From the NCBI GenBank assembly GCA_029560585.1, contig JAKQKQ010000052.1:1-64000 (forward strand): a stretch of 64,000 bases of DNA, in the 5' to 3' direction. This DNA comes from Verrucomicrobiota bacterium. GTDB taxonomy: Bacteria > Verrucomicrobiota > Verrucomicrobiia > JADLBR01. The position numbers were made by a program, and so were the translations under genes. The notes below the pieces were generated by a model. The model did not search any database, had not been told where the DNA came from, and saw only the letters and a list, made by a program, of their open reading frames with translations. Shown here piece by piece: positions 36,294 to 57,400 of this stretch. Within the stretch, counting starts at the first letter, position 1. Each line of letters begins with the position of its first letter.

Positions 36294-37673
36294 TTATTGG
36301 AGTTTCTTCCCCTCGAATTCGCCGGTGAGGCTTTCGAGGAAGGCCACGAGATTGGAGGTCTCTTGGTCGGTGAAGTTTCGTCCGAGCTGGTACGTGCCCA
36401 TTTTTCGGACGGCCTCCGCCAGTGTCTTGGCCGACGCGTCGTGGAAATAGGGCGGGGTGAGAGCGACATTGCGGAGGAGGGGCGTCTTGAACCGGTGCTT
36501 GTCGCGCGGCTGTTTCGTGACAGAGGCGCGTCCGTTGTCGGCGTCGGTGGGGTTTCTTCGATTGGCGAAGTAGTCGGCATGCAGACCCATTTTTTCGTAG
36601 GAGCGACCGCCCATGGCCATACCGGCGTGGCAGGTAGCGCAGCCGGCATCCATGAACAGGGCATGGCCTTTCTTGGCGGCTTCGGTCAGCGCGCTCTTGT
36701 CCCCGAGGAGGAATCTGTCGAAGGGGGAGTTGGGCGTCAGGAGGGTCTTCTCAAACGTGGCGATGGCATCGCAGACATTCTCTTGGGTGATGCCGCCGGG
36801 ATAGGATGCTTCGAACTCGGCCTTGAAGGCGGCATCCTGGGAGAGCTTTTGGACGATCTCGGGCCAGCTGGAGGCCATCTCAATGGGGTTGGCGGGAGGG
36901 CCGGCGGCCTGTGCGGCGAGGTCGGCGGCACGCCCATCCCAGAACTGTGCGATCTGGAGTGCGGCGTTGTAGACGGTGGGGGCATTGATGCCTCCCTTGG
37001 CACCGCCCACGCCAGTGGAGACGGGCTCGCGGTCCGTGCCGCCCTTAGCAAGGTCATGGCAGGAGGCGCAGGAGAGGGTGTTGTCCTTAGACAAGCGGGT
37101 GTCGTGGTAGAGCCGCTTTCCGAGCGCGACTTTCTTTTCATCGAGTTTTTGGGGTTGGGGGATGGGCTGGATGACGGCCGTTTTCAGGTTATCGGGGGCG
37201 GCGGGGCTGGAATAGCGGGCCGCGCGGACCTCATGGATCCAGGAGACCACGGCCTTTTTCTCGTCGGCGGTGAGGGCGCCGTCCCAGTGCATGGCGAGGT
37301 ATCGCGCGGGCGGCATGGACTCCTTGAGGATGACGTGCTCCAGTTTGGCGAGGGTCGCCTCACAGATGGGTTCGGCTGGTGCCTTGGCAAACGTGGCGAC
37401 CATATCCAGGTGTTCGGTTCCCTTCTGGATGTCGCCCTTGACTAGCGAGGATGCCACGGGCAACGCCGCATAAAAGGGAAGGTTGCCCTGGTCGGTGTGG
37501 CAGTTGCCGCATTTTTCGCCGAGGGCGTGCACAGCGGTGAGGTAGGCCTGGGGAGCGCCCGCCTCGGAGCCCAGCTTGACGCCTTTGGGCAATCCGACGA
37601 TGAGGTTAATGATGGGGAGTATCACGGCCAGGGCGATGACTGCGGCGACAGCCGCGAGGATGAGTTTTTTCAT
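36294..37673 (-). CDS. Trihaem cytochrome c peroxidase-family protein (Haem_bd + MauG-type)
   Basis: 459 residues. An N-terminal membrane/signal segment (LILAAVAAVIALAVILPIINLIVG) is followed by three CxxCH haem-binding sites: Cys55-His59, Cys202-His206 and Cys345-His349. The first lies in a haem-binding domain (CGNCHTDQGNLPFYAALP, about 45-150). The other two form a dihaem cytochrome c peroxidase/MauG core (DTRLSKDNTLSCASCHD, ATCHAGMAMGG, FKTPLLRNVALTPPYFHD). Members reduce H2O2 or oxidise protein or small-molecule partners in the periplasm. The ATG is preceded by AGGAG with a seven-base spacer. Fusion of the extra haem domain is known in the superfamily but less common than plain dihaem forms. 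Confidence 0.92.
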   Translation of the reverse strand: MKKLILAAVAAVIALAVILPIINLIVGLPKGVKLGSEAGAPQAYLTAVHALGEKCGNCHTDQGNLPFYAALPVASSLVKGDIQKGTEHLDMVATFAKAPAEPICEATLAKLEHVILKESMPPARYLAMHWDGALTADEKKAVVSWIHEVRAARYSSPAAPDNLKTAVIQPIPQPQKLDEKKVALGKRLYHDTRLSKDNTLSCASCHDLAKGGTDREPVSTGVGGAKGGINAPTVYNAALQIAQFWDGRAADLAAQAAGPPANPIEMASSWPEIVQKLSQDAAFKAEFEASYPGGITQENVCDAIATFEKTLLTPNSPFDRFLLGDKSALTEAAKKGHALFMDAGCATCHAGMAMGGRSYEKMGLHADYFANRRNPTDADNGRASVTKQPRDKHRFKTPLLRNVALTPPYFHDASAKTLAEAVRKMGTYQLGRNFTDQETSNLVAFLESLTGEFEGKKLQ

Positions 37674-37807: not shown

Positions 37808-38974
37808 TTGGGGTGGATAGATTCCCTAGTGGGTTTCGCGGAATGCTTCCGGTCTGGAGATTGGCGCGGATCGTCGCGGGTGCGGCGGCTAGCGGGATTG
37901 TTGCGGCCGGTGGACGGGGCCGGTCTGGAGGAGATGGCGCGGGAGGCGCGGTCCCTGACGCAGAGGCACTTTGGTCGGACGATGCGGCTCTACGCCCCGC
38001 TGTACCTGTCAAATGAGTGCATCAATGCGTGCAAGTACTGCGGTTTCTCGCGGGACAATGCGATATTGCGGGTGACGCTCGCGGTGGACGATGTAGAGAA
38101 GGAGGCCCGGTATCTGGCCGAGAAGGGTTTTCGCTCCATCCTTCTGGTGGCGGGCGAGCACCCGAGGTTTGTTTCGGAGGGATATATGGAGGCGTGCGTG
38201 CGCCGGGTGGCTGCGCTGGCGCCGTCGGTGTCCCTGGAAGTTGGGCCACTGGAGGAGGCGGCCTATCGGCCTCTTGTTCAGGCGGGGGCGGATGGTCTGG
38301 TCGTTTATCAGGAGACCTATGATCGGGAGTGCTACGCGGACTTGCATACGGCGGGACCGAAGAAGGATTTCGATTGGCGGCTGGGATGCCCGGAGCGTGC
38401 GGCGGCGGCGGGATTCAAGAGGGTGGGGATCGGTGCGTTACTGGGGCTGGCCGACTGGCGAGAGGAGGCGCTGCGGCTGGGCGCGCACGCAGATTATCTC
38501 TTGCGGGCGTGCTGGCGGTCGTTTCTGACGGTCTCGTTTCCGCGGCTGCGGCCTGCCGCGGGGGAATTTGCGCCACGATTTCCCCTGGGCGACCGCGAAT
38601 TCGTGCAGTTGGTGTGCGCATTCCGGATCGCGTTTCCGAGGATTGGATTGGTGCTTTCGACGAGGGAGCCGGAACGATTGCGGGATCATTTGGCGTGCCT
38701 TGGCGTGACGCACATGAGCGCCGGTTCGCACACGGAACCCGGCGGCTATACGGGGGCGGGGCAGGAATTGGCGCACCTCACCGTCCGCGGTCGCCCCGTG
38801 CCGTTCATCGCGTCGGAGGGCGAACATCAGAGCGCGACCCAGCAGTTCGCGATAGCCGACGAGCGCCCCGCATCTGAGGTCGCGCATCGGCTGCTGGAGA
38901 TGGGTTTCGATCCGGTTTGGAAGGACTGGGATCAGGCATTGGCAGGAACGGTCGGCGGGGATGGGAGCGCGTGA
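37808..38974 (+). CDS. thiH: 2-iminoacetate synthase (radical SAM tyrosine lyase)
   Basis: 388 residues. ThiH cleaves tyrosine with a 5'-deoxyadenosyl radical to give dehydroglycine and p-cresol for thiazole synthesis in thiamine biosynthesis. The radical SAM motif is CINACKYCGF (Cys-x3-Cys-x2-Cys) at about residues 70-79. Downstream VYQETYDRECYADLHTAGPKK...RLGCPERAAAAG, GIGALLGLADWR and SAGSHTEPGGY are typical ThiH blocks. The start is uncertain: TTG 37808 or GTG 37829, neither with a strong Shine-Dalgarno. It overlaps thiS by four bases (GTGA). thiG and thiF are not in the window. I looked for a TPP riboswitch in the 134-base upstream gap and did not find a convincing one. Confidence 0.93.
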   Translation: MGWIDSLVGFAECFRSGDWRGSSRVRRLAGLLRPVDGAGLEEMAREARSLTQRHFGRTMRLYAPLYLSNECINACKYCGFSRDNAILRVTLAVDDVEKEARYLAEKGFRSILLVAGEHPRFVSEGYMEACVRRVAALAPSVSLEVGPLEEAAYRPLVQAGADGLVVYQETYDRECYADLHTAGPKKDFDWRLGCPERAAAAGFKRVGIGALLGLADWREEALRLGAHADYLLRACWRSFLTVSFPRLRPAAGEFAPRFPLGDREFVQLVCAFRIAFPRIGLVLSTREPERLRDHLACLGVTHMSAGSHTEPGGYTGAGQELAHLTVRGRPVPFIASEGEHQSATQQFAIADERPASEVAHRLLEMGFDPVWKDWDQALAGTVGGDGSA

Positions 38975-39183
38975 GCGAAACGATCCAAGTCTATGTCAAT
39001 GGCGAGCCCCGGCAAGTGGCAGGGGGCACGACGGTCGCGGCGTTGGTCGGGCAGCTGGGGTTCGATGCGAGGACGCTGCTCGTGGAATTCAACGGTGAGC
39101 CCTTGGCGCGGGATCGGTGGGGTTCCACGGCACTGGCCGGGGGGGACAAGCTGGAATTGTTCCGGGTATCGGCCGGGGGATAG
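38971..39183 (+). CDS. thiS: Sulfur carrier protein ThiS
   Basis: 70 residues, ubiquitin-like fold. It carries sulfur as a C-terminal thiocarboxylate for thiazole formation. The sequence ends in the required Gly-Gly (RVSAGG), with family blocks IQVYVNGEP, TTVAALVGQLGFD, VEFNGEPLARDRW and GGDKLEL. The GTG at 38971 overlaps the thiH stop, giving a typical-length ThiS; a longer in-frame start at 38917 would read through the thiH coding region and is rejected. Co-translation with thiH supports both calls. Confidence 0.93.
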   Translation: MSETIQVYVNGEPRQVAGGTTVAALVGQLGFDARTLLVEFNGEPLARDRWGSTALAGGDKLELFRVSAGG

Positions 39184-39326
39184 GCGAAGATCGACCTGTC
39201 GCGCCGCCTTCGAATCTGATTGCAGAAACGCAGTTGTGGAGGGTCACTCGGATCTGGCACGATAATCGATCTGGGCGCAAGCGGGCGGTCGGCCCGATGT
39301 TGGTGATCCGATGCCGAGGAAATGAC

Positions 39327-42300
39327 ATGCGGCTTCAACTGATAGTCACATTGGTGTTTGCATCGGGTCTGGCCGCGGCCGCCGACGCCCAGATGGTTCG
39401 CCACATCGAGACGCAACGACCTCTCCGCATCAACACGCAATTGGTGGAGGGTGGGAAAGCGGCGGCGATCATCGCCGCATCGGCCAAGGACGCCTCGCTG
39501 GCGAGCCAGATCGTGAGTCGCGTGCGGCAACTGACCGGCGTTCAGCTGGCCGTCGTTGATGACGCCAACGTCACCGACGCGGATCTCAGGCGGGCCGACG
39601 TCATCGTGATCGGCAACCATGCCTCGAACAAGGTCGCGGAGCGCCTGTACGTGAGGGATCTGACCTTTGAGGATTACGTCTATCCGGGAATCGCCGGAAC
39701 CGAACCCGATGGCAGTGGCGCACCGGTGACAGGCTATGTCATCCGGACGGTCCATGACCCCTTTGGGTTTGGCCGCAACTGCATCGTGCTGGCGGGGAGC
39801 GAGCCGGCCGGCACGGCGGAGGCGGTCAAACAGTTCGCGGCCTCGCTGGATACGAAGGGATCGGTCGTCGTGCCACAGACAGTGAAGGTTCGCTTTGGCA
39901 CCAGGCAGCTGATGAAGCCCGCCTACACCAAGAACGAGCTCCCGCAGGCGCAGGTGGATCGGATCATTGAGGGACTGCGGCGGCAGATTTCGCGCATGAC
40001 GCGGCTTCAGGACAACATCTGGTACAGCACCGAATCGTATGCGATGGGCTACCACCTGACAGGCAATTCGTGCTGGGGCCAGATATACAAGGCCCAGATG
40101 GAAATCCTCGCGGAGAACCTCGAGCGGTTCAACTCGATGCCGAACAATTACATCGAGGGCGTGCACAAGCTCCTGCCGGCCTGGGAATTGATGGAGGAGA
40201 CGCCGTTTTTTTCAGACGCCGAACGGCTCAAGATGGTGAATGTCGTGCTGGAGGTGGCTTACCGCAACGCGACCGCATGGGAGCACTACCTGAAAGATCC
40301 GCGGCGCGAAGCCATCGACAGCCATGGCGGCGAGCGGGTCCAGTCGCTGCGTCTGGCGGGACTCTATTTCGGTGATCGCTATGGGATCAACCGCCAATGG
40401 GTTACCATGAGCGACGAGGCGATCAACTTCATGAACACGACGCCCCGGTCGTGCGACGGTTATCGCCTGGGCTGCGGCCATTGCACCCGGCTGAACGAAT
40501 ACGCCCGCCGGAGCGGTGACATGCGCTATCTCGAAAATCGGACCTGCCGCCAGCAGGCCGACCTCGTGATGGCCTGCACCGACAACCAGGGCTACACCCT
40601 GTCGATCGGCGACGCCGGCGACATGAACACCCGGATCGATCGAAACTGGAACATGGCGAGGTTCATGGGAGAGGTCGCCTGGTACTATAAGGACCCATCT
40701 TATGTGTGGTTCACCCGAAACCTCGCCTATCACGAGCTGCCGTTCATGGGATTCGTGACCGGCGAAAAGCCGCCGCCGCCGGAACGCTTCATAGGCCTCG
40801 TGGTGTTGCCCATGCATCCCGTCATTTACGGGCGGGTCAAGGATGACGAGCGCAACACGGTGCGCACATTTGAACCGGCGCCCCCGCTCACCGTGAAATG
40901 CGAAGAGGCGTTCGATAAGCTGATGTTTCGCGAGGGCCTCGATCCGAACCAGCAATACCTTCTGCTCGACGGCGTGTCTGGGATGGATCACGGGCACATC
41001 GATGGCAACGGCATCGCCCGGTTCAGCGATCTCGCCCGCATATGGTTGTTTGACGTGGGTTGGACGCGCGTCTATCCGCGCGACCACAACATGCTCCTGG
41101 TCGTGAAAGACGGGGCATCCGAGGCGCCCCAGAAGTTCACGCGGCTCGATTTTTCGGCAGATACGGGAACGGCCGCTTTCACGAAGACGACGATCCCCGA
41201 TTACAGCGGCGTGGACTGGTCGCGCCATCTTTTCTGGCTGAAGGGTGGCTGGGTGCTGGCGCTGGATCGCGCGGTGGCGAAGGGAGCGGGCAATTACACG
41301 CTGCGATGCCGTTGGCGCAGCACGGGCGAGGCCGCGCCGCAACCCGACGGCCTTCTCGTCACGCAATCGGGGCCGCGCTTCCGGATCCTGAACGTCGATG
41401 GCTCGCGGCGGCGGCTCAGAGAGGCCTGGCTCGATGACACTGGCGATGCGCTCGCCTCGTATCCGCATGTGGGCAAAGGGGGCGAGACGATCATGTACGA
41501 CAATGTTGTTGAGAAGCGCCTTGCCCCCGGCGAGAGCCACACGTTCCAGAATCTGTTCTATGCCACATCCGATCAGGTGCGTCGTGAGTGCCGCATCGAG
41601 CGCGTGGACGATTCGACGGTCCGGATCGTGTCGCAGGGCAAGCCCATGGTCGCCGGGATCGGGAAGGACGGTTCCACCTACATGCTGTCGGGGAGCAAAT
41701 TCTGGGTGGCGCACGGGACGTCGCTCGGGCAACCGCCGCTGTTTCAGGCGACACAGCCGGTGGATATAGAATATGATCTGGCCACCGGGCGTGGCACGGT
41801 GGTGACGACATCGCCTGCGAGGGTGACGATTCTCGGGGGTCCGGCGTCGGGGACATCGGTCGCCGCGGGCAGACATCCGCTGATGTGGCAGGCTTCGCGT
41901 GATGGCGCGGCGCGCCTTGGCGCCATGCTGATGGGATTCCGGCCGACGCAGGCCCCTGTGACGCCCGCGCGACCGACGCAGCCCGCGGGTCTCACGGCAA
42001 TGTGGGAGACTCGCGCGGTGCAGCCTTGCGAGATTCTGGACATGGCGGTCGGCGACCTCGACGGGGACGGCAAGTCGGAGATCATCACCGCGGGCGATGA
42101 CGGCTCGGTCAGCGTGCTTGGCTTTGACGGAAAGATGCGCTGGCGGCGCGACGGGATGGGCCGGGCCGACTCGGTGACGGTGGCGCGCTTCGACGGAAAA
42201 CCGCATGTCGTCGTCGGCTGTCGGCAATCACCGTACATCTTTGTTTTTGATGGCGCCGGCACGCGCATCGAGGGCCAGTGGGCGAAGCTGGATGCCGCGG

Positions 42301-43121
42301 CTGATTCGTACAAAGGGGTAGCCTCGCCCGTGCGGTTTGTCGCGGCGGCCGACATGAACGGCGACGGGGCCGACGAGTTGCTGGCGGCCAATCGCTGCGT
42401 GAGCGAGGAGGGTATGCGGGGGCATGTGTACTGTTATGACGCGATGGGCCGGATGATCTGGCAGCAGCGGCCCGTGGAGCATGAGCTTTGCGCGGGCGCC
42501 ATCGGCGAACTCAAACCCGGCGGACCGAAACTGTTGTTCGTGGGCGGCTCCTTCGGAAATTGCGCCGCCTTGAATGGCAGTGGGCGCGAGGTGTTTCGCG
42601 CGCCGACCAGCCATCGCTCCACCGTGATCTGCGCCGGCGACGTGGATGGCGATGGCGACAACGAGGTCCTCATTGGCGGCAATGACAATTACGTTCACCT
42701 GCACGGGGCCGACGGAAAACGCCGTTGGATGCACAACGTCGGTGGACCGGCCAGCGGCATTGAAGTGATCGATGTGAATGGCGACCACGAGCCCGAGATC
42801 GTGGTCGCCACCGCCGAGTTGAACGCCAATGTCTTCGCCCTGAAGGCCGACGGGACGCGCGTCTGGCAATTTGCCGCCGGCGAAGAGGTCCACGGCCTGG
42901 CCGTCGGCAGCGTCGACAGCCGGTCCGGCGACGAGATCGTGCTCGGCACGGATGGCGAGGGCGTGCTCGTCCTCGGCGGCCAAGGCAAGCCTATCGGAGG
43001 GGCAACAACTTCTGGCTGCGTCGCCAGGCTCGCCCTTTGCCCGGGCGCATCACGCAATCGGAGCGATATTCTCGCGGCGATGAAGAACGGCTCGGTAGTC
43101 AGGCTGTCCTTGGCGCGGTGA
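39327..43121 (+). CDS. Giant secreted heparinase II/III-like protein with C-terminal FG-GAP propeller
   Basis: 1264 residues. Signal peptide (LQLIVTLVFASGLAAAADA); ATG 39327 with GAGGA six bases before it. Residues about 30-165 form an alpha/beta domain (ADVIVIGNHASNK, VIRTVHDPFGFGRN). An all-alpha toroid follows (about 200-500: RLQDNIWYSTESYAMGYHLT). Residues about 520-850 are a beta-sandwich with YLLLDGVSGMDHGHIDGNG, resembling the His-containing block of heparinase II/III-type uronate lyases. Residues about 905-1264 carry FG-GAP/calcium repeats (DLDGDGKSEII, DMNGDGADELL, DVDGDGDNEVL, DVNGDHEPEIV). It is probably an extracellular polysaccharide lyase or binding protein. A paralogue with the same domain order is at 54499-58638. 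Lyase activity is inferred from fold resemblance only. Confidence 0.72.
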   Translation: MRLQLIVTLVFASGLAAAADAQMVRHIETQRPLRINTQLVEGGKAAAIIAASAKDASLASQIVSRVRQLTGVQLAVVDDANVTDADLRRADVIVIGNHASNKVAERLYVRDLTFEDYVYPGIAGTEPDGSGAPVTGYVIRTVHDPFGFGRNCIVLAGSEPAGTAEAVKQFAASLDTKGSVVVPQTVKVRFGTRQLMKPAYTKNELPQAQVDRIIEGLRRQISRMTRLQDNIWYSTESYAMGYHLTGNSCWGQIYKAQMEILAENLERFNSMPNNYIEGVHKLLPAWELMEETPFFSDAERLKMVNVVLEVAYRNATAWEHYLKDPRREAIDSHGGERVQSLRLAGLYFGDRYGINRQWVTMSDEAINFMNTTPRSCDGYRLGCGHCTRLNEYARRSGDMRYLENRTCRQQADLVMACTDNQGYTLSIGDAGDMNTRIDRNWNMARFMGEVAWYYKDPSYVWFTRNLAYHELPFMGFVTGEKPPPPERFIGLVVLPMHPVIYGRVKDDERNTVRTFEPAPPLTVKCEEAFDKLMFREGLDPNQQYLLLDGVSGMDHGHIDGNGIARFSDLARIWLFDVGWTRVYPRDHNMLLVVKDGASEAPQKFTRLDFSADTGTAAFTKTTIPDYSGVDWSRHLFWLKGGWVLALDRAVAKGAGNYTLRCRWRSTGEAAPQPDGLLVTQSGPRFRILNVDGSRRRLREAWLDDTGDALASYPHVGKGGETIMYDNVVEKRLAPGESHTFQNLFYATSDQVRRECRIERVDDSTVRIVSQGKPMVAGIGKDGSTYMLSGSKFWVAHGTSLGQPPLFQATQPVDIEYDLATGRGTVVTTSPARVTILGGPASGTSVAAGRHPLMWQASRDGAARLGAMLMGFRPTQAPVTPARPTQPAGLTAMWETRAVQPCEILDMAVGDLDGDGKSEIITAGDDGSVSVLGFDGKMRWRRDGMGRADSVTVARFDGKPHVVVGCRQSPYIFVFDGAGTRIEGQWAKLDAAADSYKGVASPVRFVAAADMNGDGADELLAANRCVSEEGMRGHVYCYDAMGRMIWQQRPVEHELCAGAIGELKPGGPKLLFVGGSFGNCAALNGSGREVFRAPTSHRSTVICAGDVDGDGDNEVLIGGNDNYVHLHGADGKRRWMHNVGGPASGIEVIDVNGDHEPEIVVATAELNANVFALKADGTRVWQFAAGEEVHGLAVGSVDSRSGDEIVLGTDGEGVLVLGGQGKPIGGATTSGCVARLALCPGASRNRSDILAAMKNGSVVRLSLAR

Positions 43122-43288
43122 GTCGTGCGCCTTCCTTTCGCGGCGCGAGCAATCCTCCCTGGTGTGTTCTCCATGCATCCTGAGGGCTGAATTCCAGCGA
43201 TCCGCCTAGGCAACACAATGAATCTCATCCGGGGCGGCGGGATCGTCGTGTCATATTTGGCTTCGCGTCACTCGGGACTCGGATTATT

Positions 43289-46200
43289 GTGCGAGCCCTG
43301 ATGACCCGCGGGCGACGGAGTGCCTTGGGCGGATTAGTCGTGGCGCTGACGGCTGAGGCCTGCATGGCGTCGGGGGGTGCCGTGATCGGGGGGGGGATCG
43401 GTTTTCTGATGGCGGGCGACATGTCGGATGCGGTCGGGGTGGAATCCCACCCGGCGCGTGATTTGGCAGAGAGGCTGGTTTCGGCAACGGTCATCTTGCC
43501 GAATGGGGACGGCAGGTTCGTGGATCGAGATGGGAAGGTGGTGACGCTCGATCGATTCCGCGTCGTCTGGTGTCATGGGGGGGACTCGGTCCAGCGGTTG
43601 GACTTGGCTTCCCAACCGACGGCGGTTGAGAGCCTGAGGCAGTATGTCGGGGGAGGCCGGGGACTCTTGCTCAGCGGAGGTGCGGCGGCCCTCGTGGCGC
43701 CGTTGCAGGTCGATACCGTCCGGATGCGGCCCATGAAATCAGACAATGACCGCGGCCAGGCAGGACTCGTGCCCCTGAACCTCTGGCATCCGGCCTTCAG
43801 GGGCCTCGATATAGATCGCGGGGTGCTCTGGATGTCCAACGCCATGTTTCCGTCGTTTGCCGAGTTTCGCCCGACGAGCAGTCCCGCGAAAGGGATGCGC
43901 CTCGCGCGGACGCCCGGCGGGCCAGAGATTCCTCTTTTGGAGTATGGCCTCGGCGACGGGCGCATCGTCGTGATGGGATGGCAATTGGGCCGGCTCTACG
44001 GCGATGCCGCGGCGGCATACCGGGGGAATTTTGAGGGCCTGATCTCGAATCTCGTGCGGTACCTCGGCGATGCTAAGGCATGGCAACCGCTCGCGATGGA
44101 TGGCGAGGGCATGCCGCCGAGAGCCGGTCCGATTCGGGCCGTGTCCGAGGCCGAGTTGCGATCAGTGGAACTGGCCATCCGCGACCTGATGGAGACATTC
44201 GGGGAGCGATATCGCGGGGGGTCGGACTTCTTGAAGCGGTTGGCCGCGCTGAGGGATGCCCAAGGCGAGGTTTTGGGGCAGGCACAGGCGGCCCCATCGC
44301 GGGTGCCGGCGCCGCCGGGATTGATGGCGGACATCGCCCGCCAATTTGACGCGCTTCGACGCGAGGCGCTTCTGGCGAATCCCCTTTTGGATTTTCATCG
44401 GCTGCTTCTGGTCAAGCGCGGGGCCAACAATCTTGGCCTGCCTCGCAATTACGAGAGCAATTCCAGCCTTAAGCCGACCGGTTATGACAACGAGATCGCG
44501 GTCCTCGGCCCGGCCGGGCCCGAGGGGCAGCTCACCACGTTCTATCGCCCCGAGGGTGGGAGGTTTGTCGGGGACGTGGATCTCCATTTCGATGCCGATC
44601 GGATGCTCTTCTCCATGCCGGGATCGGATGGGCGCTGGCGGGTATCGGAGATCAGCGCCGACGGCTCGAATCTCCACGAGCTTCCGCTGATCAACGAACC
44701 GGACGTCGATAACTATGATGCCTGCTATCTTCCCGATGGCCGGATCGTTTTTGGATCGACGGCGTGTTTTACGGGCGTGCCGTGCATCAATGGCTCGGGC
44801 CATGTCGCCAACCTGTACCTGCTGGAGACCGGGGGAAGGATCCGCCAACTCACCGTCGAACAAGACCACGACTGGTGTCCTGCCGTGCTGAACAACGGCC
44901 GCGTCCTGTATCTTCGCTGGGAGTACACGGACCTGCCGCACGCGTTCTCGCGCATCCTTTTCCACATGAATCCCGATGGCACGGAGCAGATGGAATACTA
45001 TGGCAGCAATTCCTACTGGCCCGCCTCCATGTTCTACGCGCGGCCGATCCCCGGGCATCCGACGAAGGTGGTGGCGGTCGTGGGCGGACATCACGAGCTA
45101 CCAAGGATGGGCGAACTGGTGATTTTCGATCCCGCGCGGGGGCGCTTTGAGGCCGACGGCGCCGTCCAGAGGACTCCGGGGCACGGGCGCAAGGTCGCGC
45201 CGACGATGCTCGACCTGCCCATCGCGCAGAGCTGGCCGAAGTTCCTCCACCCATATCCCCTCGGCGAGAAATATTTCTTGGTGTCCTGCAAGCCCTCGGC
45301 CGATGCGCTCTGGGGAATCTATCTTGTGGATGTTTTCGACAACATGCTGCTGCTGCGCGAGGAACCGGGCTATGCGTTGCTGGAACCAATCCCATTTCGG
45401 AAAACCGCGCGACCGCCGGCGATCCCGGACAAGGTGGATCTGGTCCGCCGCGATGCGGAGGTCTCGATCGCGGACGTTTACGCTGGCGAGGCGCTCAGGG
45501 GAGTGCCGCGGGGCACGATCAGGCGCCTGCGGTTGGTCAGTTACCAGTTCGGTTATCAGGGCATGGGAGCAGAACCCTACAGCGTGGGGCTCGACGGCCC
45601 ATGGGACCCGAAGATAGTCCTGGGCACGGTGCCGGTGCAGGAGGACGGTTCCGCCCGATTCCGGGTGCCGGCGTACACTCCGATTGCGCTGCAGCCGCTT
45701 GATGCTGAAGGGAAGGCTGTCCAGCTGATGCGGAGTTGGTTCACGGCGATGCCCGGGGAAGTGGTCTCATGCGTCGGTTGTCACGAGATGCAGAACACGG
45801 CTCCGCCTGTCCGAAAGACGATGGCCGGAGGACGGGAGCCCGACGCGATTGAGCCGTGGCGCGGGCCACCGAGAGGATTTGCGTTCCGGCGGGAGGTCCA
45901 ACCGGTGCTGGACGCCCACTGCATCGGCTGCCACGACGGAAAGCCACGGCCCGACGGGCGCAGTATTCCCAGTCTTATTGACGGGGAACCGGTGCCGACG
46001 CTCAACAACAACTCGCGGATGAATCAGGCCTCGCGATTCAGCCCATCCTACTATCAGTTGCGCCGATTCGTGCGGACGCCGACCAAGGAGAGTGATCTGC
46101 ACCTATTGACACCGTGGGAATTCCACGCCGACACGACGCGGCTCGTGCAAATGCTCCAGAAGGGACATCACGGGCTCACTCTCGGCGCCGAGGCCCGGGA

Positions 46201-47350
46201 CCGCCTGGTGACCTGGATCGACCTGAATGCGCCCTACCATGGGAACTGGACGGATATCCGGGGAACCGAGATCGGCCCCGAGGTGAAGCACCAGTGGGAA
46301 CGCCGCCGCGCCATGCGGAAGATGTTTGCAAATATGGAGGACGATCCTGAGGCGATCTACCCCGGCGCGACGCCGATTGCGATCGCGCCCAAGTTGCGTC
46401 CCGTGGCCAGCGGCGAGGGAGTTCGCCCCCGGGGGCAGTCGCCCGGCGCCGTTGGGGGCGACGCCTTGCAGCGGCCGATCCCCGCACGACTCCCGTGCGT
46501 GTCGGTCCCGCTGGCGGATGGGATTTCGGTGGAACTGGTCCAGATCCCGGCCGGGGATTTTGTTATGGGGCAGGAGGACGGCTATGCCGACGAGCGCCCG
46601 ACCTGTCGCGTGACGATCCGGTCGCCATTTTGGATGGGGCGATATGAGGTGACCAACGAGCAGTTCGCCCTGTTCGATCCGGCGCACGACAGCCGACTGG
46701 AACACGGTGATTTCCTGCAGTTCGGCCCGGGCGAACGCGGCTGGAGCCTTTCTGGGGCGAACCAGCCGGTGGTCCGTGCATCCTGGAACGAGGCGATGGC
46801 GTTCTGCCGTTGGCTCTCTCGCAAGACAGGCCGACGATTCACGCTGCCGAGCGAGGCCCAGTGGGAGTACGCGTGCCGGGCGACGACATCGACGCCGCTC
46901 TGGTACGGCGCGACGGACGTTGATTTCTCGGCGTTTGCCAATGTCTCCGATGCCCGCCATCAGGCGATCGACGACTTTGGGGAACCCGGACGCCAGTTGG
47001 TGATCCCGCCGTGGCGTCCGGCCGACGCGCGGTATGACGATGGGAGTCGCGTTTCGGCGCCCGTGGGAAGTTATCGGCCGAATCCGTGGGGCCTTTTCGA
47101 CATGCATGGGAACGTGGCGGAATGGACATGCTCGGACTACCATCCCTACCCGCACGAGGATGGCATGGGGAGCAAGCCACGGGGTTCCGACTGCAAGAAG
47201 GTTGTTCGTGGCGGCTCCTGGTATGATCGCCCGGACCGCTGCCGCTCTGCCTTTCGTCAGGCTTACCCCGCCAGCCAGCCGGTGTACGACGTGGGTTTTC
47301 GCGTCATCTGTGAGGGGGGCGGGGATCTCTCCCATGCCATAGGCGATTGA
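43289..47350 (+). CDS. Secreted multidomain dihaem protein: amidotransferase-like + HzsA-like propeller + SUMF1
   Basis: 1353 residues. Signal-like N-terminus (SALGGLVVALTAEACMASGG). About 50-260 resembles a ThuA/class I glutamine-amidotransferase-like fold without a clear catalytic Cys (RVVWCHGGDSVQRLD, GGGRGLLLSGG). About 370-760 is a beta-propeller resembling the hydrazine synthase alpha middle domain (GDVDLHFDADRMLFSMPG, DNYDACYLPDGRIVFGSTAC). Two c-type haem sites follow: Cys828-His832 (CVGCH) and Cys878-His882 (CIGCH). About 1070-1350 is a SUMF1/formylglycine-generating-enzyme fold (VQIPAGDFVMGQ, YEVTNEQF, LPSEAQWEYACR, GNVAEWT, VVRGGSWYD). Of the usual FGE cysteine pair only one equivalent Cys (DRCRSAFR) is apparent, so formylglycine activity is doubtful. 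Role unknown; probably periplasmic or extracellular redox or binding. The start could also be ATG 43301. Confidence 0.7.
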   Translation: MRALMTRGRRSALGGLVVALTAEACMASGGAVIGGGIGFLMAGDMSDAVGVESHPARDLAERLVSATVILPNGDGRFVDRDGKVVTLDRFRVVWCHGGDSVQRLDLASQPTAVESLRQYVGGGRGLLLSGGAAALVAPLQVDTVRMRPMKSDNDRGQAGLVPLNLWHPAFRGLDIDRGVLWMSNAMFPSFAEFRPTSSPAKGMRLARTPGGPEIPLLEYGLGDGRIVVMGWQLGRLYGDAAAAYRGNFEGLISNLVRYLGDAKAWQPLAMDGEGMPPRAGPIRAVSEAELRSVELAIRDLMETFGERYRGGSDFLKRLAALRDAQGEVLGQAQAAPSRVPAPPGLMADIARQFDALRREALLANPLLDFHRLLLVKRGANNLGLPRNYESNSSLKPTGYDNEIAVLGPAGPEGQLTTFYRPEGGRFVGDVDLHFDADRMLFSMPGSDGRWRVSEISADGSNLHELPLINEPDVDNYDACYLPDGRIVFGSTACFTGVPCINGSGHVANLYLLETGGRIRQLTVEQDHDWCPAVLNNGRVLYLRWEYTDLPHAFSRILFHMNPDGTEQMEYYGSNSYWPASMFYARPIPGHPTKVVAVVGGHHELPRMGELVIFDPARGRFEADGAVQRTPGHGRKVAPTMLDLPIAQSWPKFLHPYPLGEKYFLVSCKPSADALWGIYLVDVFDNMLLLREEPGYALLEPIPFRKTARPPAIPDKVDLVRRDAEVSIADVYAGEALRGVPRGTIRRLRLVSYQFGYQGMGAEPYSVGLDGPWDPKIVLGTVPVQEDGSARFRVPAYTPIALQPLDAEGKAVQLMRSWFTAMPGEVVSCVGCHEMQNTAPPVRKTMAGGREPDAIEPWRGPPRGFAFRREVQPVLDAHCIGCHDGKPRPDGRSIPSLIDGEPVPTLNNNSRMNQASRFSPSYYQLRRFVRTPTKESDLHLLTPWEFHADTTRLVQMLQKGHHGLTLGAEARDRLVTWIDLNAPYHGNWTDIRGTEIGPEVKHQWERRRAMRKMFANMEDDPEAIYPGATPIAIAPKLRPVASGEGVRPRGQSPGAVGGDALQRPIPARLPCVSVPLADGISVELVQIPAGDFVMGQEDGYADERPTCRVTIRSPFWMGRYEVTNEQFALFDPAHDSRLEHGDFLQFGPGERGWSLSGANQPVVRASWNEAMAFCRWLSRKTGRRFTLPSEAQWEYACRATTSTPLWYGATDVDFSAFANVSDARHQAIDDFGEPGRQLVIPPWRPADARYDDGSRVSAPVGSYRPNPWGLFDMHGNVAEWTCSDYHPYPHEDGMGSKPRGSDCKKVVRGGSWYDRPDRCRSAFRQAYPASQPVYDVGFRVICEGGGDLSHAIGD

Positions 47351-47420
47351 GGGGCGGGTTTTTCGACGGGCCGCGAACCCTTGAAGTGGACAACCGGGCG
47401 CGCTCCGATAAAGTTCAAAC

Positions 47421-50228
47421 ATGATTGAAGTTCTAAAGATTGCGATGGTGGGGCTCGGGGTGTTTTCGGCGCGCGCGGAACCAGGGCCCCAAATCGGCAT
47501 CAAGAACGATTTTGTGGATTTCGCTCTCGGAGCCGACGGGCGGAACCGGTGCTTCGTTGATCGGTCGACGGGCCAGGACTATTGCGCGGGGAAGGGGAAC
47601 TCGCCGTTCGCGCGCGTGAAGAAAGGGGGCAAGGAGTATCCCGTCACCGCCGCCACCTGCACGGACGGCGTCGTGACGGTCCGGTTTGGTGATGCCGGGG
47701 TGACGGCCGACATCGGAGTCGAGGTGAAGGGACGCTATCTCGTGTTTGAGGTGAAGAGGCTGGAGGGGGAGGGCGTCGAGGAGTTCACGTTCATCGACGT
47801 CCCGCTGACGACGAAAGGACAGCCCGAGGAGGCTTTCGCGGCGTGTGCGCTGGCGCTGAATCTGCAGACCAACGTGCGGGACTTGCCGGGCCCATCCAGC
47901 CGCCTGCGCGCCGCGTGTTACCCGCGGTTCGGCTTTGTGGGGGCCAGGGCGGCGGTGATCGGCTGCCCGCGGGACAAATTGCGGGAGATCATGAAGGAGG
48001 TGGTTGGCGACGCCCCGGGGCTGCCGCATTCGCAGCTGGGTGGGCCGTGGGCGATGGACGCGCCCGAAAACTATGGCTCCTACCTGATGACCACCGGGAT
48101 TTCGGAGAAAGACGTGGATGATTGGATTGGTGTCGCGCGAAGCCTCGGGGTTCGCCAGATCGATATGCATGGCGGCAGGTCGTTTCGATTCGGGGACTGC
48201 GAGCCCGATCCCAAGATGTACCCGAACGGGCGCGCGAGCCTGAAGGCCGTGATCGATAAGCTGCATGCCGCGGGGATCCTGGCGGGCCTGCACACCTACG
48301 CGTTTTTCATGGCGAAGAATTGCCCGTGGGTCACGCCGGTGCCCGACCCGCGACTGGGCAAGGACGCGACGTTCACCTTGGCGGAGGCCCTGACGGCGGA
48401 GGCAACCACGGTGCCGGTGGAAGAGCCCACGGCGAATATGTCCACCGTAACGGGCTTTTTCGTTCGGAATAGCGTGACGCTGCAGGTCGACGACGAACTG
48501 ATCACGTACGGCGACGTCTCGAAAGAGGCGCCATTTGGATTCAAGGGCTGCAAGCGCGGGGCATGGGGCACGCGCGTGGCCCCGCACGCCAAGGGCACCA
48601 GGGTGCAGCATCTGCGGGAATGTTTCGGGCTTTTCGTGCCCGATGGCGAATCGACCCTGCTCACCGAAGTGGCGGCCAAGACCGCGGAAATGTTCAACGA
48701 GTGCGGATTCGACATGATCTATCTCGATGCGCTGGATGGCGAGGACGCGATAGCCGGGCGGGAGAACGGGTGGCATTACGGCTCAAAATTCACGTTCGAG
48801 ATCTGCCAGCGTCTGAAAAAATCGGCGATCATGGAGATGAGCACATTCCACCATCATCTGTGGTTCGTGCGGTCGCGGATGGGCGCGTGGGATCACCCCA
48901 GCCGGAGCCACAAGAAGTTCGTCGATATCCATTGCGCGGCCAACGCGATGTGCCAGCGGATGTTCATGCCGTCCAACCTGGGCTGGTGGTCGTTCAAGAC
49001 GTGGACGGGCGCGCTGGGGGAGCCGACCTTTTCCGATGATATCGAGTACTGGTGCGGCAAGGCCCTCGCGAACGATTCGAGCATCGAGATCGGCGTTTCC
49101 CCGGCGGATCTTGCGAAGACACCGGCGCTGCCGAGATTGGCGGCGATCGTCAAGCGGTACGAGGACCTGCGGCTGGCGAAGTATTTCGGCGAGGAGGTGA
49201 AACGGGAACTTCGGGTGCCGGGCGACGAGTTTTCCCTGGGTCAAGATGCCGGAGGGAAGTGGGGCTTCCGGCGCATCCAGTACTCGAAGCACAGGGTTGA
49301 GGGACTCGATGGCTGGAGCGACAGCTGGGGCGTCACGAACCGCTTTGGCCAGCAACCGCTTCGGCTCAGGATCGAGGCGCTCCTGTCCGCGGGCGCGTAC
49401 GATGCCCCCGGGAATATCACCCTGGCGGATTTCCGCGACGCCAACGAATTCACGAACCGCGTGGCGGAGGCCGGGATTCGTTTCGGGTTGGAACCCTGCG
49501 CCGATGTCGTGAAGGTCGGACAGACGAGCGGGCGATTCAGTGCGACGAGCGAGCGACAGGGCCGCGAGCGCGCCTGGGCCAAGGCGGGAAAGGTTTTTGC
49601 GCCGGCGTTGAACCTCGAAAAACATCAGGCGATGGGTGTGTGGGTTCATGGCGACGGCAAAGGGGAGGTCCTGAACCTGCAATTGAAAAGCCCTCCCGGA
49701 TTCACACCCGGGGATGGCGATCACTACATCATCGTGGACTTCACCGGCTGGCGCTATTTTGAGCTGATCGAGCCCGAGGGCGAACGATACGCCAGTTACT
49801 CATGGCCCTATGGCGGCATCTACTCCATCTACCGCGAGAATGTCACCTATTCACGCGTGCACGCCCTAAACATGTTTTTGAACAACATCCCCGCGAAGGG
49901 TGCGGTGGCGTGCGAGATGTCGCCGATCGTCGCCCTTCCGACGGTGACGGCCAAGCTGCGCAATCCGGCGATCGCGATCGCGGGCGGGACCATCCGGTTC
50001 CCGGTGGAAATGGAGAGCGGGAGTTATCTTGAATTTCAGTCAATGGCCGACTGCAAACTATATGGCCCGAAGGGCGAGCTACTCCGCGAGATCAGGCCGG
50101 AGGGCGACGTGCCGGCTTTGGGGGGCGGGCCGAACCGCATCTCATTCTCATGCGATGGATCCCCCGGGCTGCGTCTCAGGGCGCGCGTGACAGTGATCGC
50201 GCTCGGGCCCGCCGTGGGCGGCCGGTGA
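47421..50228 (+). CDS. Secreted protein with probable TIM-barrel glycosidase domain, hypothetical
   Basis: 935 residues; I do not recognise a named family with certainty. Signal peptide MIEVLKIAMVGLGVFSARA. Residues 25-170 form a beta-sandwich (VVTVRFGDAGVTADIGVEVK). About 200-560 looks like a (beta/alpha)8 barrel: DDWIGVARSLGVRQIDMHGG, LHAAGILAGLHTYAFF and an acidic strand end FDMIYLDALDGED near residue 430, a possible catalytic site. An inserted beta domain (ATTVPVEEP...LITYGDVS) interrupts the barrel. The C-terminal 350 residues are beta-rich (WRYFELIEPEGERY). Fold and secretion suggest a glycoside hydrolase related to GH31/GH36-like barrels, but that is inference. It is 70 bases downstream of the HzsA-like gene in the same direction. 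Confidence 0.6.
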   Translation: MIEVLKIAMVGLGVFSARAEPGPQIGIKNDFVDFALGADGRNRCFVDRSTGQDYCAGKGNSPFARVKKGGKEYPVTAATCTDGVVTVRFGDAGVTADIGVEVKGRYLVFEVKRLEGEGVEEFTFIDVPLTTKGQPEEAFAACALALNLQTNVRDLPGPSSRLRAACYPRFGFVGARAAVIGCPRDKLREIMKEVVGDAPGLPHSQLGGPWAMDAPENYGSYLMTTGISEKDVDDWIGVARSLGVRQIDMHGGRSFRFGDCEPDPKMYPNGRASLKAVIDKLHAAGILAGLHTYAFFMAKNCPWVTPVPDPRLGKDATFTLAEALTAEATTVPVEEPTANMSTVTGFFVRNSVTLQVDDELITYGDVSKEAPFGFKGCKRGAWGTRVAPHAKGTRVQHLRECFGLFVPDGESTLLTEVAAKTAEMFNECGFDMIYLDALDGEDAIAGRENGWHYGSKFTFEICQRLKKSAIMEMSTFHHHLWFVRSRMGAWDHPSRSHKKFVDIHCAANAMCQRMFMPSNLGWWSFKTWTGALGEPTFSDDIEYWCGKALANDSSIEIGVSPADLAKTPALPRLAAIVKRYEDLRLAKYFGEEVKRELRVPGDEFSLGQDAGGKWGFRRIQYSKHRVEGLDGWSDSWGVTNRFGQQPLRLRIEALLSAGAYDAPGNITLADFRDANEFTNRVAEAGIRFGLEPCADVVKVGQTSGRFSATSERQGRERAWAKAGKVFAPALNLEKHQAMGVWVHGDGKGEVLNLQLKSPPGFTPGDGDHYIIVDFTGWRYFELIEPEGERYASYSWPYGGIYSIYRENVTYSRVHALNMFLNNIPAKGAVACEMSPIVALPTVTAKLRNPAIAIAGGTIRFPVEMESGSYLEFQSMADCKLYGPKGELLREIRPEGDVPALGGGPNRISFSCDGSPGLRLRARVTVIALGPAVGGR

Positions 50229-54498: not shown

Positions 54499-57400
54499 TC
54501 AAGGCGCAGGCTTGAGGCACGTGACGCGTCCGTCGGCGGTGGCGGCGGTGATCAGGGGGCCGAGGGGAGAGAGATCGACGATGCGCGAGGCGAGGCCGCG
54601 TGAGGCGAGGGCTTTCCCCTTGGCGTCAAGGGTGGTGAGGCCGCCCCCGGCGGTGGCGGCGATGGCGACGGCGCGCTTGTCTTTCCCGAGGGTGATGAGT
54701 GCTGTGATGGGGGCCCCGAGATCCTGGCGCCAGCGGAGGGCTCCGTTGCCATTGAAACAATAGAGGCTGTGGCTCATTGAGCCCGCGAGTGCCTCGTCGT
54801 GGCCATCGCCATCGAGATCGGCGCAAGCGACCTTGCGGACCTCGTCGCCGGTGTCGAACTGCGCGCGCGGTTTGCCGTCGTGGGAAAGGATGTGGGCGAT
54901 GCCGTCGCCACCGCCGAGGATGACGCCGCGGGTGCGCGCCCCGTCGAAGTTGCCCGTGGCGACGTCGTAGCAGATCGGGCCCATGTGGTAGGACCAGCGG
55001 CGGGTCCCGTCGGAGTTGAGCGCGCTGACCCAATAGTAATGCGTGCCGCAGACGACCTCGGCTTTCCCATCGCCATCGAGGTCGGCGACCGCGCCTGAGC
55101 GGGAGGGGTGAACGCTCTCGTAATTCCAGAGTTCGGTGCCGTCTCCGCGGAACGCGTAGAAGCGCCAGTTCTCTCCGCCCGCAATGACCTCCGGCTTGCC
55201 ATCGCCATCGATGTCGCCAGAGCGGACGATGTTCACATAGGGCGGGCGGCGGTAGTATTTGAGCTCGCGCCTCCAGATCTCGCGGCCATCGGCGGCGAGC
55301 GCGGCGACAAAATGGTCCTGGCGGGCGACGAGGATCTCGTCGCGGCCGTCGGCGTCGAGGTCTGCCGCGGCGATGTCGTTGATGCGGCAACCGACGGGGA
55401 TCTGCCAGCGTGGGGAACCATCGCCTTTCAGGGCGAACAGCGTTCCTTCTGCGGTGGCGACGAGCAGATCGGGGGCGGTGCGGGAGAGCCGGGCCGGGGC
55501 GATGCGGGTTATGTGAAATGGCGGCCTATTTGTGGCGGGTGCGCTGGGAGCGATCGTGGCGAGGTCGCGTTCCCAAACAATGGGCTGAGGGGGGGCGGTG
55601 GCGGTGGGTTTAAGGTTGGGAATCGGGGCGCGGCAGGGCGAGTGGATCAGGGCGTTTGCGGCCTCGGGGAGTTCGAGATCGATGGACGCGGGCGCATCGG
55701 AGCGATGGAGGACTCCTGCGGCTGTTCGCGCGGAGGTGGCGGCGAGAAGCGAGATGCGCTGCCCGTCGGCGGCGATGAGTTGCGCGTCGGATTCGGGCAT
55801 CGCGGCAGGGGCTTGCCCTCGGCTTGGGCCGAGCGCGACGGCGAGGGGGCCCTGGGGCGTCTGGGCGATGGCGCCGCTGGCGGCGTCGATGGAGGCGAGT
55901 TTCCATGGCGATTCGGAGCCATCGGCGCTGCCGTGGATCGCAGTCGCAAAGAGGTAGGATTCCCCGGCCTTGAGGCGGACGGTGGCGATGGCCGCCAGAG
56001 AGCGGACCACCGGGTCCGCGTAGGGGTACCCCTTCCAATTTTCCCCGAGTTCGGGATCGTCAACCAGCCTCAGCTCTGGGCCCGGCGCGATCTGGATCCA
56101 GAGGGCGGGACCCTTCTGCTCAAGACGGAGGCCATCGGGCGTCAGTTCGGCTTTCCCGACGCCGTGCCAGAGCAAACGGAACTGATATTCGCCGGCCTCG
56201 CGCGCGGTCATTTGGTCCAGGACAAGGAATGCGTTGCTCGCCTTGTTCCATGAGATAGCCCGGTCCCAGTCGGCGCCCGCGTAACCATTGAGCCGGGTGC
56301 GGCTGAAACCGAAGCGTGGCGTTTCTCCCGCGCCGAGGAGCTCGGTGTAGGTTGGCAGCGGGGCGGACTGCCCATCGCGGAAGACCATCAGCGAGTTGTG
56401 GTATTTCACCTGGGCCTTGAAATAGTCATTGTCGGCGAGCCAGATCCGGCCGAATCGCGTGATCTGGAGCACGGCGTTGGCATCCAGGTGCTTGTGGCCG
56501 CCGTTGCCGAGGCCGTCGAGGAGGAGGTAGGCGGCGTCTGGATTCATGGCCTCGCGGAAGGAGATCTTGTCGAAGAGGCGCTCCGAGGGGGGGCGTTTTT
56601 CCGCGGGCCACGAGGCGACGTACTGTGGTTCAAGCGGCCAGGTTTTGACGCCGTTGAATTGCTCGGGCCGTTTTCCGGGGTCGTTGCGACAGAAGGCGTG
56701 GGTCTCGAAGGTATTCTTTATTTGGCGTTTGAGGTTCGCGGCCCATGCGGCGGCTGGGTCGTGCGTGGCGGAGGCAAAGATGTCGAGGCAGATCATCTCG
56801 CTGTTCCAGCATTGCCACGAGCCGGTGTCGCCGTACGGGACCTGGTAGCCGAGGTTATTCATGGTGCCGATGGCGTAGTCGATGAGCCGGCGGCCATTGC
56901 CATTCTCGAAGATCGCGGGATCGGGACGCGCTGCGGCATATCGCATGAGGTGGCCGGTGGTGAGCCACTGGTAGCCATTGCAATCCTCGAGGGGTTTGAA
57001 GTAGCGGGCCTGGCGCCGGAAGATGGCATCGGCCATCGAGAGCCATTGTTGGCCCTCGAGGGTATCGATGCCCTTCGAATAATAGAGTCCGGCGAACAGA
57101 GTGCCGAGGGCGGGGAACGTCTGGTGGTTGTGCGGGACGTGGTCGCCTGTGACGGCGGAGGCGCATTTCGGGATGACGGCCTCCGCGAGCCACCGGCCCA
57201 TGGCCTTCATGACCCGGAGCCGATCCTCGTCGGTGACCGCGGGGTCGTCCTCGATGATGTCCCAGCCTGCGAGCACTTCGCTTGAGGGGAAGTCGCTGTC
57301 GAAACCCCATGGGCCGCCGTATTTTCTGGGGTCGGACTTGGCGCTGTCGAGGTACATGTCCCAGAGGGCGCAGAAGAGTTTGGCCTCGATGCTGGCGCCC

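Follow-up and report, generated by a model that had tools for sequence, protein, structure and literature searches.

RESULTS

An exported di-haem protein of the HZS-alpha superfamily

Analysis of a 64,000-nucleotide stretch of a Verrucomicrobiota draft genome (assembly GCA_029560585.1, contig JAKQKQ010000052.1, positions 1 to 64,000; here called the window) revealed a gene encoding an exported c-type di-haem protein that belongs to the superfamily of the alpha subunit of hydrazine synthase (HZS), HzsA, and within it to a branch carrying a C-terminal SUMF1 domain. The complete gene (43289..47350, forward strand, as are all features below unless stated otherwise) is one uninterrupted open frame of 1353 amino acids with a GTG start codon; an ATG follows four codons further on. 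The encoded protein comprises, in order, an N-terminal head, a helical linker, a propeller, an HZS-alpha haem domain, a cytochrome-c-like domain and a SUMF1 tail. An earlier note on this DNA, made from the sequence alone, had described a secreted chain of this length joining an amidotransferase-like head, an HzsA-like propeller, two haem motifs and a SUMF1 tail, and the open frame, the Pfam matches and the predicted folds agreed with that description. Residues 1 to 25 (43289..43363) were assigned as an export signal by eye, on a basic n-region followed by a hydrophobic stretch.

A structural model of residues 284 to 1353 was generated with AlphaFold2 using 27 sequences (predicted local distance difference test score [pLDDT], 78.8; predicted template modelling score, 0.81). 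Alignment coverage indicated that residue 284 onward is the part shared with other fused homologues. Searching the Protein Data Bank (PDB) with this model in Foldseek returned chains A and D of entry 5c2v, the HZS alpha subunit, first (E 6.6e-26; template modelling score 0.60 by target length), followed by PvdO, other SUMF1-fold proteins, formylglycine-generating enzyme (FGE) and TolB. The earlier note had proposed comparing the full chain with 5C2V and with FGE structures. A profile of 34 homologues matched 5c2v_A by sequence (E 3.5e-35), and profile and fold together extended the homology to HzsA over the propeller, haem and cytochrome domains. The propeller is thus related to HzsA; an unrelated propeller was the outcome that the note had named as contradicting its reading. 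The beta-propeller itself occupies about residues 372 to 735 (44402..45493), as judged from the AlphaFold2 strands, from profile alignment to the HzsA blades and to TolB and from the Foldseek matches to 5c2v and TolB. The note had likened it to the middle domain of HzsA; the relationship was borne out by sequence and fold, but in Pfam the label "middle domain" belongs to the haem-alpha-I domain, with the propeller forming a separate stretch ahead of it.

The haem-alpha-I motif is carried by the HZS_alpha domain (PF18582; residues 742 to 833, 45512..45787), which was detected by Pfam and by the genome-wide search. Its score of 102.7 bits against a curated cut-off of 26.6 (E 1.6e-29) places the protein in the HZS_alpha superfamily, and profile and fold alignment to 5c2v_A revealed the layout of that superfamily, with the propeller ahead of PF18582 and a cytochrome-c-like haem domain behind it. 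The first haem motif, C828-V-G-C-H832 (CVGCH; 45770..45784), aligns with C583..H587 of HzsA. The cytochrome-c-like C-terminal HZS-alpha domain (residues 862 to 987, 45872..46249) aligns with residues 642 to 767 of 5c2v_A and carries the second motif, that of haem II, C878-I-G-C-H882 (CIGCH; 45920..45934), which is aligned with the haem-alpha-II motif of HzsA (H689). Both motifs lie exactly at the residues given in the earlier note (828-832 and 878-882) and are not chance occurrences, because both are invariant in all 70 aligned full-length fused homologues. With respect to the bis-His pair of haem alpha-II, H882 corresponds to H689 of HzsA. The pair H960-H961 (46166..46171) likely supplies the distal ligand, as read from the alignment: H961 aligns with H772 of HzsA, and the adjacent H960 is the invariant residue (70/70). 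Both CXXCH motifs and H960 were also invariant in the 34-sequence alignment, which includes paralogues without SUMF1.

In HZS, the haem alpha-I ligand is Tyr591, four residues past the His of the CXXCH motif (PMC12607021, PMC12758564). Gap-free profile alignment to 5c2v_A places Q835 and N836 at HzsA Ser590 and Tyr591, with N836 (45794..45796) at the ligand position. Residue 836 is Asn in 49 of the 70 fused homologues, and Tyr appeared at this position neither among the counts listed for these homologues nor in the paralogues of the same genome. In its own HZS-like homologues, PMC12758564 puts a two-residue gap at the Tyr591 region; under either alignment, the predicted protein has no equivalent of Tyr591. 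Four propeller residues that are invariant in the 70 homologues, C499, Y546, H551 and H602, are candidates for the haem-I pocket. The propeller thus has an invariant Cys, C499; the region of the HzsA zinc ligand Cys303 did not align reliably to the window protein, and this ligand is not conserved even in all anammox bacteria (PMC12758564).

These residues bear on whether the gene could encode a true hydrazine synthase of a hidden anammox metabolism. Homology to HZS extends to this protein and to the partner described below. However, neither Tyr591 nor Ser590 is conserved, the match to the NCBIfam HzsA equivalog model NF052339 reached only 32.8 of the 800 bits set as its cut-off, and a published survey excludes anammox outside Brocadiia (PMC12758564). 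Hydrazine synthesis was rejected on the loss of Tyr591 (N836), and we regard this explanation as scarcely credible.

A fused beta-gamma protein accompanies the alpha genes

Analysis of gene neighbourhoods was based on the best 80 of 580 confirmed named loci, most of which carried the full fusion; the query alignment included the SUMF1 tail, so that this sample is biased toward fused forms. The commonest family flanking the fused alpha genes was a propeller plus di-haem cytochrome c peroxidase (CCP)/MauG protein, found at 12 of the 80 loci, its ends often overlapping the alpha gene. This family is a homologue of a fused HZS beta-gamma, because its profile matches both single subunits, with E 7.2e-56 for HZS beta and 2.1e-37 for HZS gamma.

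The two genes occur together. Among 57 relatives from the same class, fused alpha (core plus SUMF1 tail) was found in 17 genomes, beta-gamma in 16 and both in 15. Among 289 genomes of the phylum the respective numbers were 52, 61 and 51, so that beta-gamma was present in 51 of 52 genomes with fused alpha versus 10 of 237 without it. At the genus level, beta-gamma was found in all 22 genera having fused alpha (22/22), and both genes were absent from three genomes of genus g6 (G006, G091 and G107). Both the genus-level table and this joint absence speak for a genuine link. Pairs lying on the same strand less than 2.5 kb apart were found in at least 22 genomes from 8 genera, a lower bound obtained by comparing the best-listed matches; in 12 genomes of one genus the gaps were 35 to 57 bp. 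In the g6 beta-gamma proteins (L172:10276-12156 and L169:9664-11631), the two usual haem motifs enclose a third CXXCH (CAQCH), which was not seen in the other aligned beta-gammas.

Searches of the contigs of the window's own genome, from which all genome-wide counts given here derive, revealed one beta-gamma gene (C94:632-2524, locus L167). It lies near a contig end, and its product shows a propeller plus CCP_MauG in Pfam and, over a match at 638-2452, 52% identity to the beta-gamma of locus L093. A tri-haem cytochrome c peroxidase (Haem_bd, CCP_MauG and cytochrome c domains) is encoded within the window on the reverse strand (36294-37673), 5.6 kb from the alpha gene. The genome search for PF03150 returned no other gene and missed the C94 beta-gamma, a weak match on its own. 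The peroxidase was not favoured as the gamma partner: it has no propeller, it has an extra haem-binding domain, and a true beta-gamma is present elsewhere in the genome.

We put at about 0.5 the probability that the window protein is an alpha-like subunit in a non-anammox haem complex of HZS type, to which the separately encoded fused beta-gamma contributes the other part. Several observations weigh against this. No beta-gamma gene was found beside the window gene or in the flanks of the other alpha loci of the genome, and C94 is a separate contig. A tree built with FastTree from 102 alpha sequences places the window protein in a starred clade of 24 rows, none of them with an adjacent beta-gamma; its paralogue on C296 sits nearer the beta-gamma-linked members. 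The Fisher test of the phylum table (p 2e-45) ignores the relatedness of genomes and overstates their independence, and the co-occurrence could come partly from a shared lifestyle. The assembly is a draft of 336 contigs with an estimated contamination of 4.2%. In addition, the fold likeness of the head to part of a glycan-uptake machine is no proof that the modelled head binds glycans.

Some of these observations would be expected if the window copy were a self-sufficient di-haem protein outside the cell, either an electron carrier or a peroxidase, derived from an alpha subunit but no longer tied to beta-gamma. The missing adjacent partner, both at the gene and throughout its 24-row clade, fits such a protein, as do the ratio of 16 alpha genes to one beta-gamma in the genome and the peroxidase 5.6 kb away. 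On the other hand, fused alpha is almost confined to genomes having beta-gamma, and the core residues of the window copy are conserved as in beta-gamma-linked copies. We treat independent action as possible but rather unlikely.

The SUMF1 tail and the head lack catalytic residues

The SUMF1/FGE-fold tail spans residues 1082 to 1340 (46532..47308) and matched the Pfam FGE-sulfatase family with E 9.9e-48 (163.5 bits; cut-off 23.3). Its closest solved relative was PvdO (5hha; E 3e-24 by sequence, 8.7e-15 by fold). Alignments of the FGE copper-cysteine site (47225..47242) revealed D1313 in place of human Cys336 and C1318 at Cys341; the latter position is Ala in 38 of the 70 homologues. The earlier note had reported one active-site Cys to be missing. 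This holds for the window chain, with Asp1313, and across the family the whole copper-binding pair is absent (0/70 full-length fused homologues). As judged from these residues, the tail is catalytically incomplete as an FGE.

The strong FGE-sulfatase match and the 116 sulfatase matches in the genome would suit an active FGE joined to a cytochrome for sulfatase maturation. Set against this are Asp1313, the Cys pair missing throughout the homologues and a nearest structure that is not an FGE. Sulfatase maturation was rejected on the missing pair and is considered very improbable. The note had proposed an extracellular redox or sulfatase-related system; redox chemistry remains the best general idea and is sharpened by the beta-gamma partner, and the sulfatase part, read as sulfatase maturation, found no support.

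The head (residues 25 to 281, 43361..44131) was modelled with AlphaFold2 (pLDDT 80.5) and adopts a class-I amidotransferase/ThuA-like fold, in line with the amidotransferase-like domain first noticed. Foldseek gave chain G of the levan utilisome (8aa2_G; E 4.3e-10) as the best match and the ThuA-like protein 1t0b as the next; Pfam gave a weak match to DUF4960 (E 0.02). The head is probably non-catalytic, because the nucleophile Cys is missing: the elbow motif reads LLLSGGAAAL in the window chain, and no Cys is conserved in the head alignment. This head is common to about 18 of the 80 named loci. The same head was also seen close to the N-terminal end of further large proteins encoded by four class relatives (L153-L156), with no more than a weak DUF4450 match. 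A helical linker (residues 284 to 362, 44138..44374), defined by AlphaFold2 helices at model residues 4 to 79 and by alignment coverage, connects the head to the propeller.

Paralogues, distribution and genomic setting

The genome (7.06 Mb) contains 16 HZS-alpha (PF18582) genes, three of which carry a SUMF1 tail (C142, C296 and C254b). Four HZS-alpha genes lie end to end on one strand (C254:42044-56055, locus L031); one of them has a SUMF1 tail, and the others have LamG or F5/8C heads. A sulfatase match lies roughly 1 kb upstream of this run. The heads of the paralogues vary between LamG, F5/8C and others. Cytochrome c assembly genes are present in the genome.

A survey of domain order, as the earlier note had proposed, found the architecture to be widespread. 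The fusion was detected in seven phyla (Planctomycetota, Verrucomicrobiota, Hydrogenedentota, Lentisphaerota, Kiritimatiellota, Armatimonadota and Acidobacteriota). A uniquely assembled chain was ruled out, given that most of the 80 named loci carry the fusion and about 18 of them the head. A relative with 77% identity, closer than any seen in the window's own class, was found on a contig of a Phycisphaerae metagenome-assembled genome (L150, JAFGLZ010000166.1); transfer or mis-binning is possible.

The upstream same-strand neighbour (39117..43121) encodes a large secreted protein that ends in an FG-GAP propeller of the carrageenase type (Pfam), and the downstream same-strand neighbour (47421..50228) encodes a probable TIM-barrel glycosidase-like protein with weak CBM_11 and AP_endonuc_2 matches. 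Together with the 116 sulfatase matches, these genes indicate that the genomic setting is polysaccharide degradation. A conserved operon around the window copy was rejected: comparison with the flanks of the 80 loci yielded one relative of the downstream gene (L075, near a fused alpha) and a weak relative of a BNR gene (L082). Immediately upstream of the same-strand run 39117-50228, a radical SAM protein with a BATS domain is encoded (37808-38974, forward strand). The upstream neighbour and a protein encoded on the reverse strand (54499-58638) are both large, at ~1350 amino acids, and both have a C-terminal FG-GAP propeller of the lambda-carrageenase type.

DISCUSSION

Proposed function

In the proposed HZS-like complex, the partner would be the fused beta-gamma, consisting of a seven-bladed propeller and a MauG-like di-haem domain (C94:632-2524 in this genome). 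The alpha core would position haem I to act with a beta-gamma haem, as in HZS; haem II, probably bis-His-ligated, would serve electron transfer; and the MauG-like site of beta-gamma would perform the first step. The catalytically incomplete head and SUMF1 tail probably bind glycans or anchor the complex at the cell surface, which would place the redox chemistry near polysaccharide. The LamG and F5/8C heads of the paralogues, the likeness of the head to a levan utilisome chain, the sulfatase matches and the non-catalytic tail are consistent with such a glycan setting. The reaction may be of the peroxidase or oxidase type, a guess from the relation to MauG and CCP, and would not be hydrazine synthesis. 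We infer complex formation, glycan binding and reaction type, as well as the pairing of the window paralogue with the C94 beta-gamma.

The variable heads (LamG, F5/8C, amidotransferase-fold) and the incomplete tail would also suit a protein that binds glycans or serves as a scaffold at the cell surface, its haems having a purely structural role and undergoing no redox turnover. This is improbable in view of the invariance of both CXXCH motifs and H960, in the 70 homologues and in the paralogues without SUMF1, and of how strictly fused alpha and a di-haem MauG-like protein pair across genomes.

A broader and doubtful extension of the proposed complex would be that one near-invariant HZS-type beta-gamma serves many interchangeable alphas, of which there are 16 here and every one of which brings a glycan-binding head of its own, forming a modular polysaccharide-targeted haem oxidoreductase of Planctomycetes-Verrucomicrobia-Chlamydiae (PVC) bacteria to which this branch has added a SUMF1 tail; hydrazine synthase itself may derive from such stock.

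To our knowledge, hydrazine synthase has been treated as unique to anammox bacteria. Its evolutionary origin is debated, and a widespread system of strictly paired alpha and beta-gamma in PVC bacteria that degrade glycans offers a natural comparison for it. About one in five of the 289 phylum genomes sampled has this system, with tight gene pairs throughout one genus, g6. Since fused alpha almost always co-resides with a beta-gamma relative, the results point to an unstudied hydrazine-synthase-like complex with another job. A family annotated merely as "HZS_alpha domain-containing" thereby becomes a testable two-protein complex. For marker-gene surveys, matches to PF18582 or loose hzs matches are no indicator of anammox.

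Comparison with known systems

The earlier note was right to call HzsA-like propellers outside anammox bacteria poorly characterised, but homologues had already been published. The accounts cover HZS-like alpha and fused beta-gamma genes from outside anammox, the adjacency of the two and the absence of key residues (PMC12758564, 2025; PMC10732223, 2023). PMC10732223 proposes a broader hzs-like family with other substrates. The text of PMC12758564 contains none of the words "SUMF1," "sulfatase" or "Verrucomicrobi," and no useful literature connecting Akkermansia to HZS or to such cytochromes was found. The SUMF1-tailed alpha variant and its strict pairing with beta-gamma appear to be undescribed; the novelty of the variant is likely but not certain, the literature searched being sparse in subscription journals.

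Like HzsA of Kuenenia stuttgartiensis (PDB entry 5C2V), the window protein runs from a propeller through the PF18582 haem-alpha-I domain to a cytochrome-c-like haem-alpha-II domain, and HzsB and HzsC are homologues of its fused beta-gamma partner. Unlike HzsA, it lacks Tyr591 and Ser590 and adds a head and a SUMF1 tail; unlike in HZS, the partner in this genome is fused and unlinked, and there is no anammox setting. The non-anammox HZS-like homologues (clades I to IV of PMC12758564; PMC10732223) comprise the same kinds of alpha and fused beta-gamma, often adjacent and without key HZS residues. According to PMC12758564, its clade I lacks the distal His772, whereas the fused homologues analysed here have an invariant His at or beside that place.

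The tail resembles PvdO and other SUMF1-fold proteins (PDB entries 5HHA and, for FGE, 2AFT and others) in fold and sequence but differs in belonging to a haem protein and in lacking the FGE Cys pair. The head shares its fold with levan utilisome chain 8AA2_G and ThuA-like proteins at an identity of only about 19%. The Planctomycete-specific cytochromes PSCyt1-3 of PVC bacteria are likewise large haem families with carbohydrate-binding modules, often near sulfatase genes; in Verrucomicrobia, PSCyt have been described as decorated cytochromes near sulfatases, with no function given (PMC5615132). Their haem domains are different from those of the window protein, in which Pfam matched no PSCyt or PSD domain.

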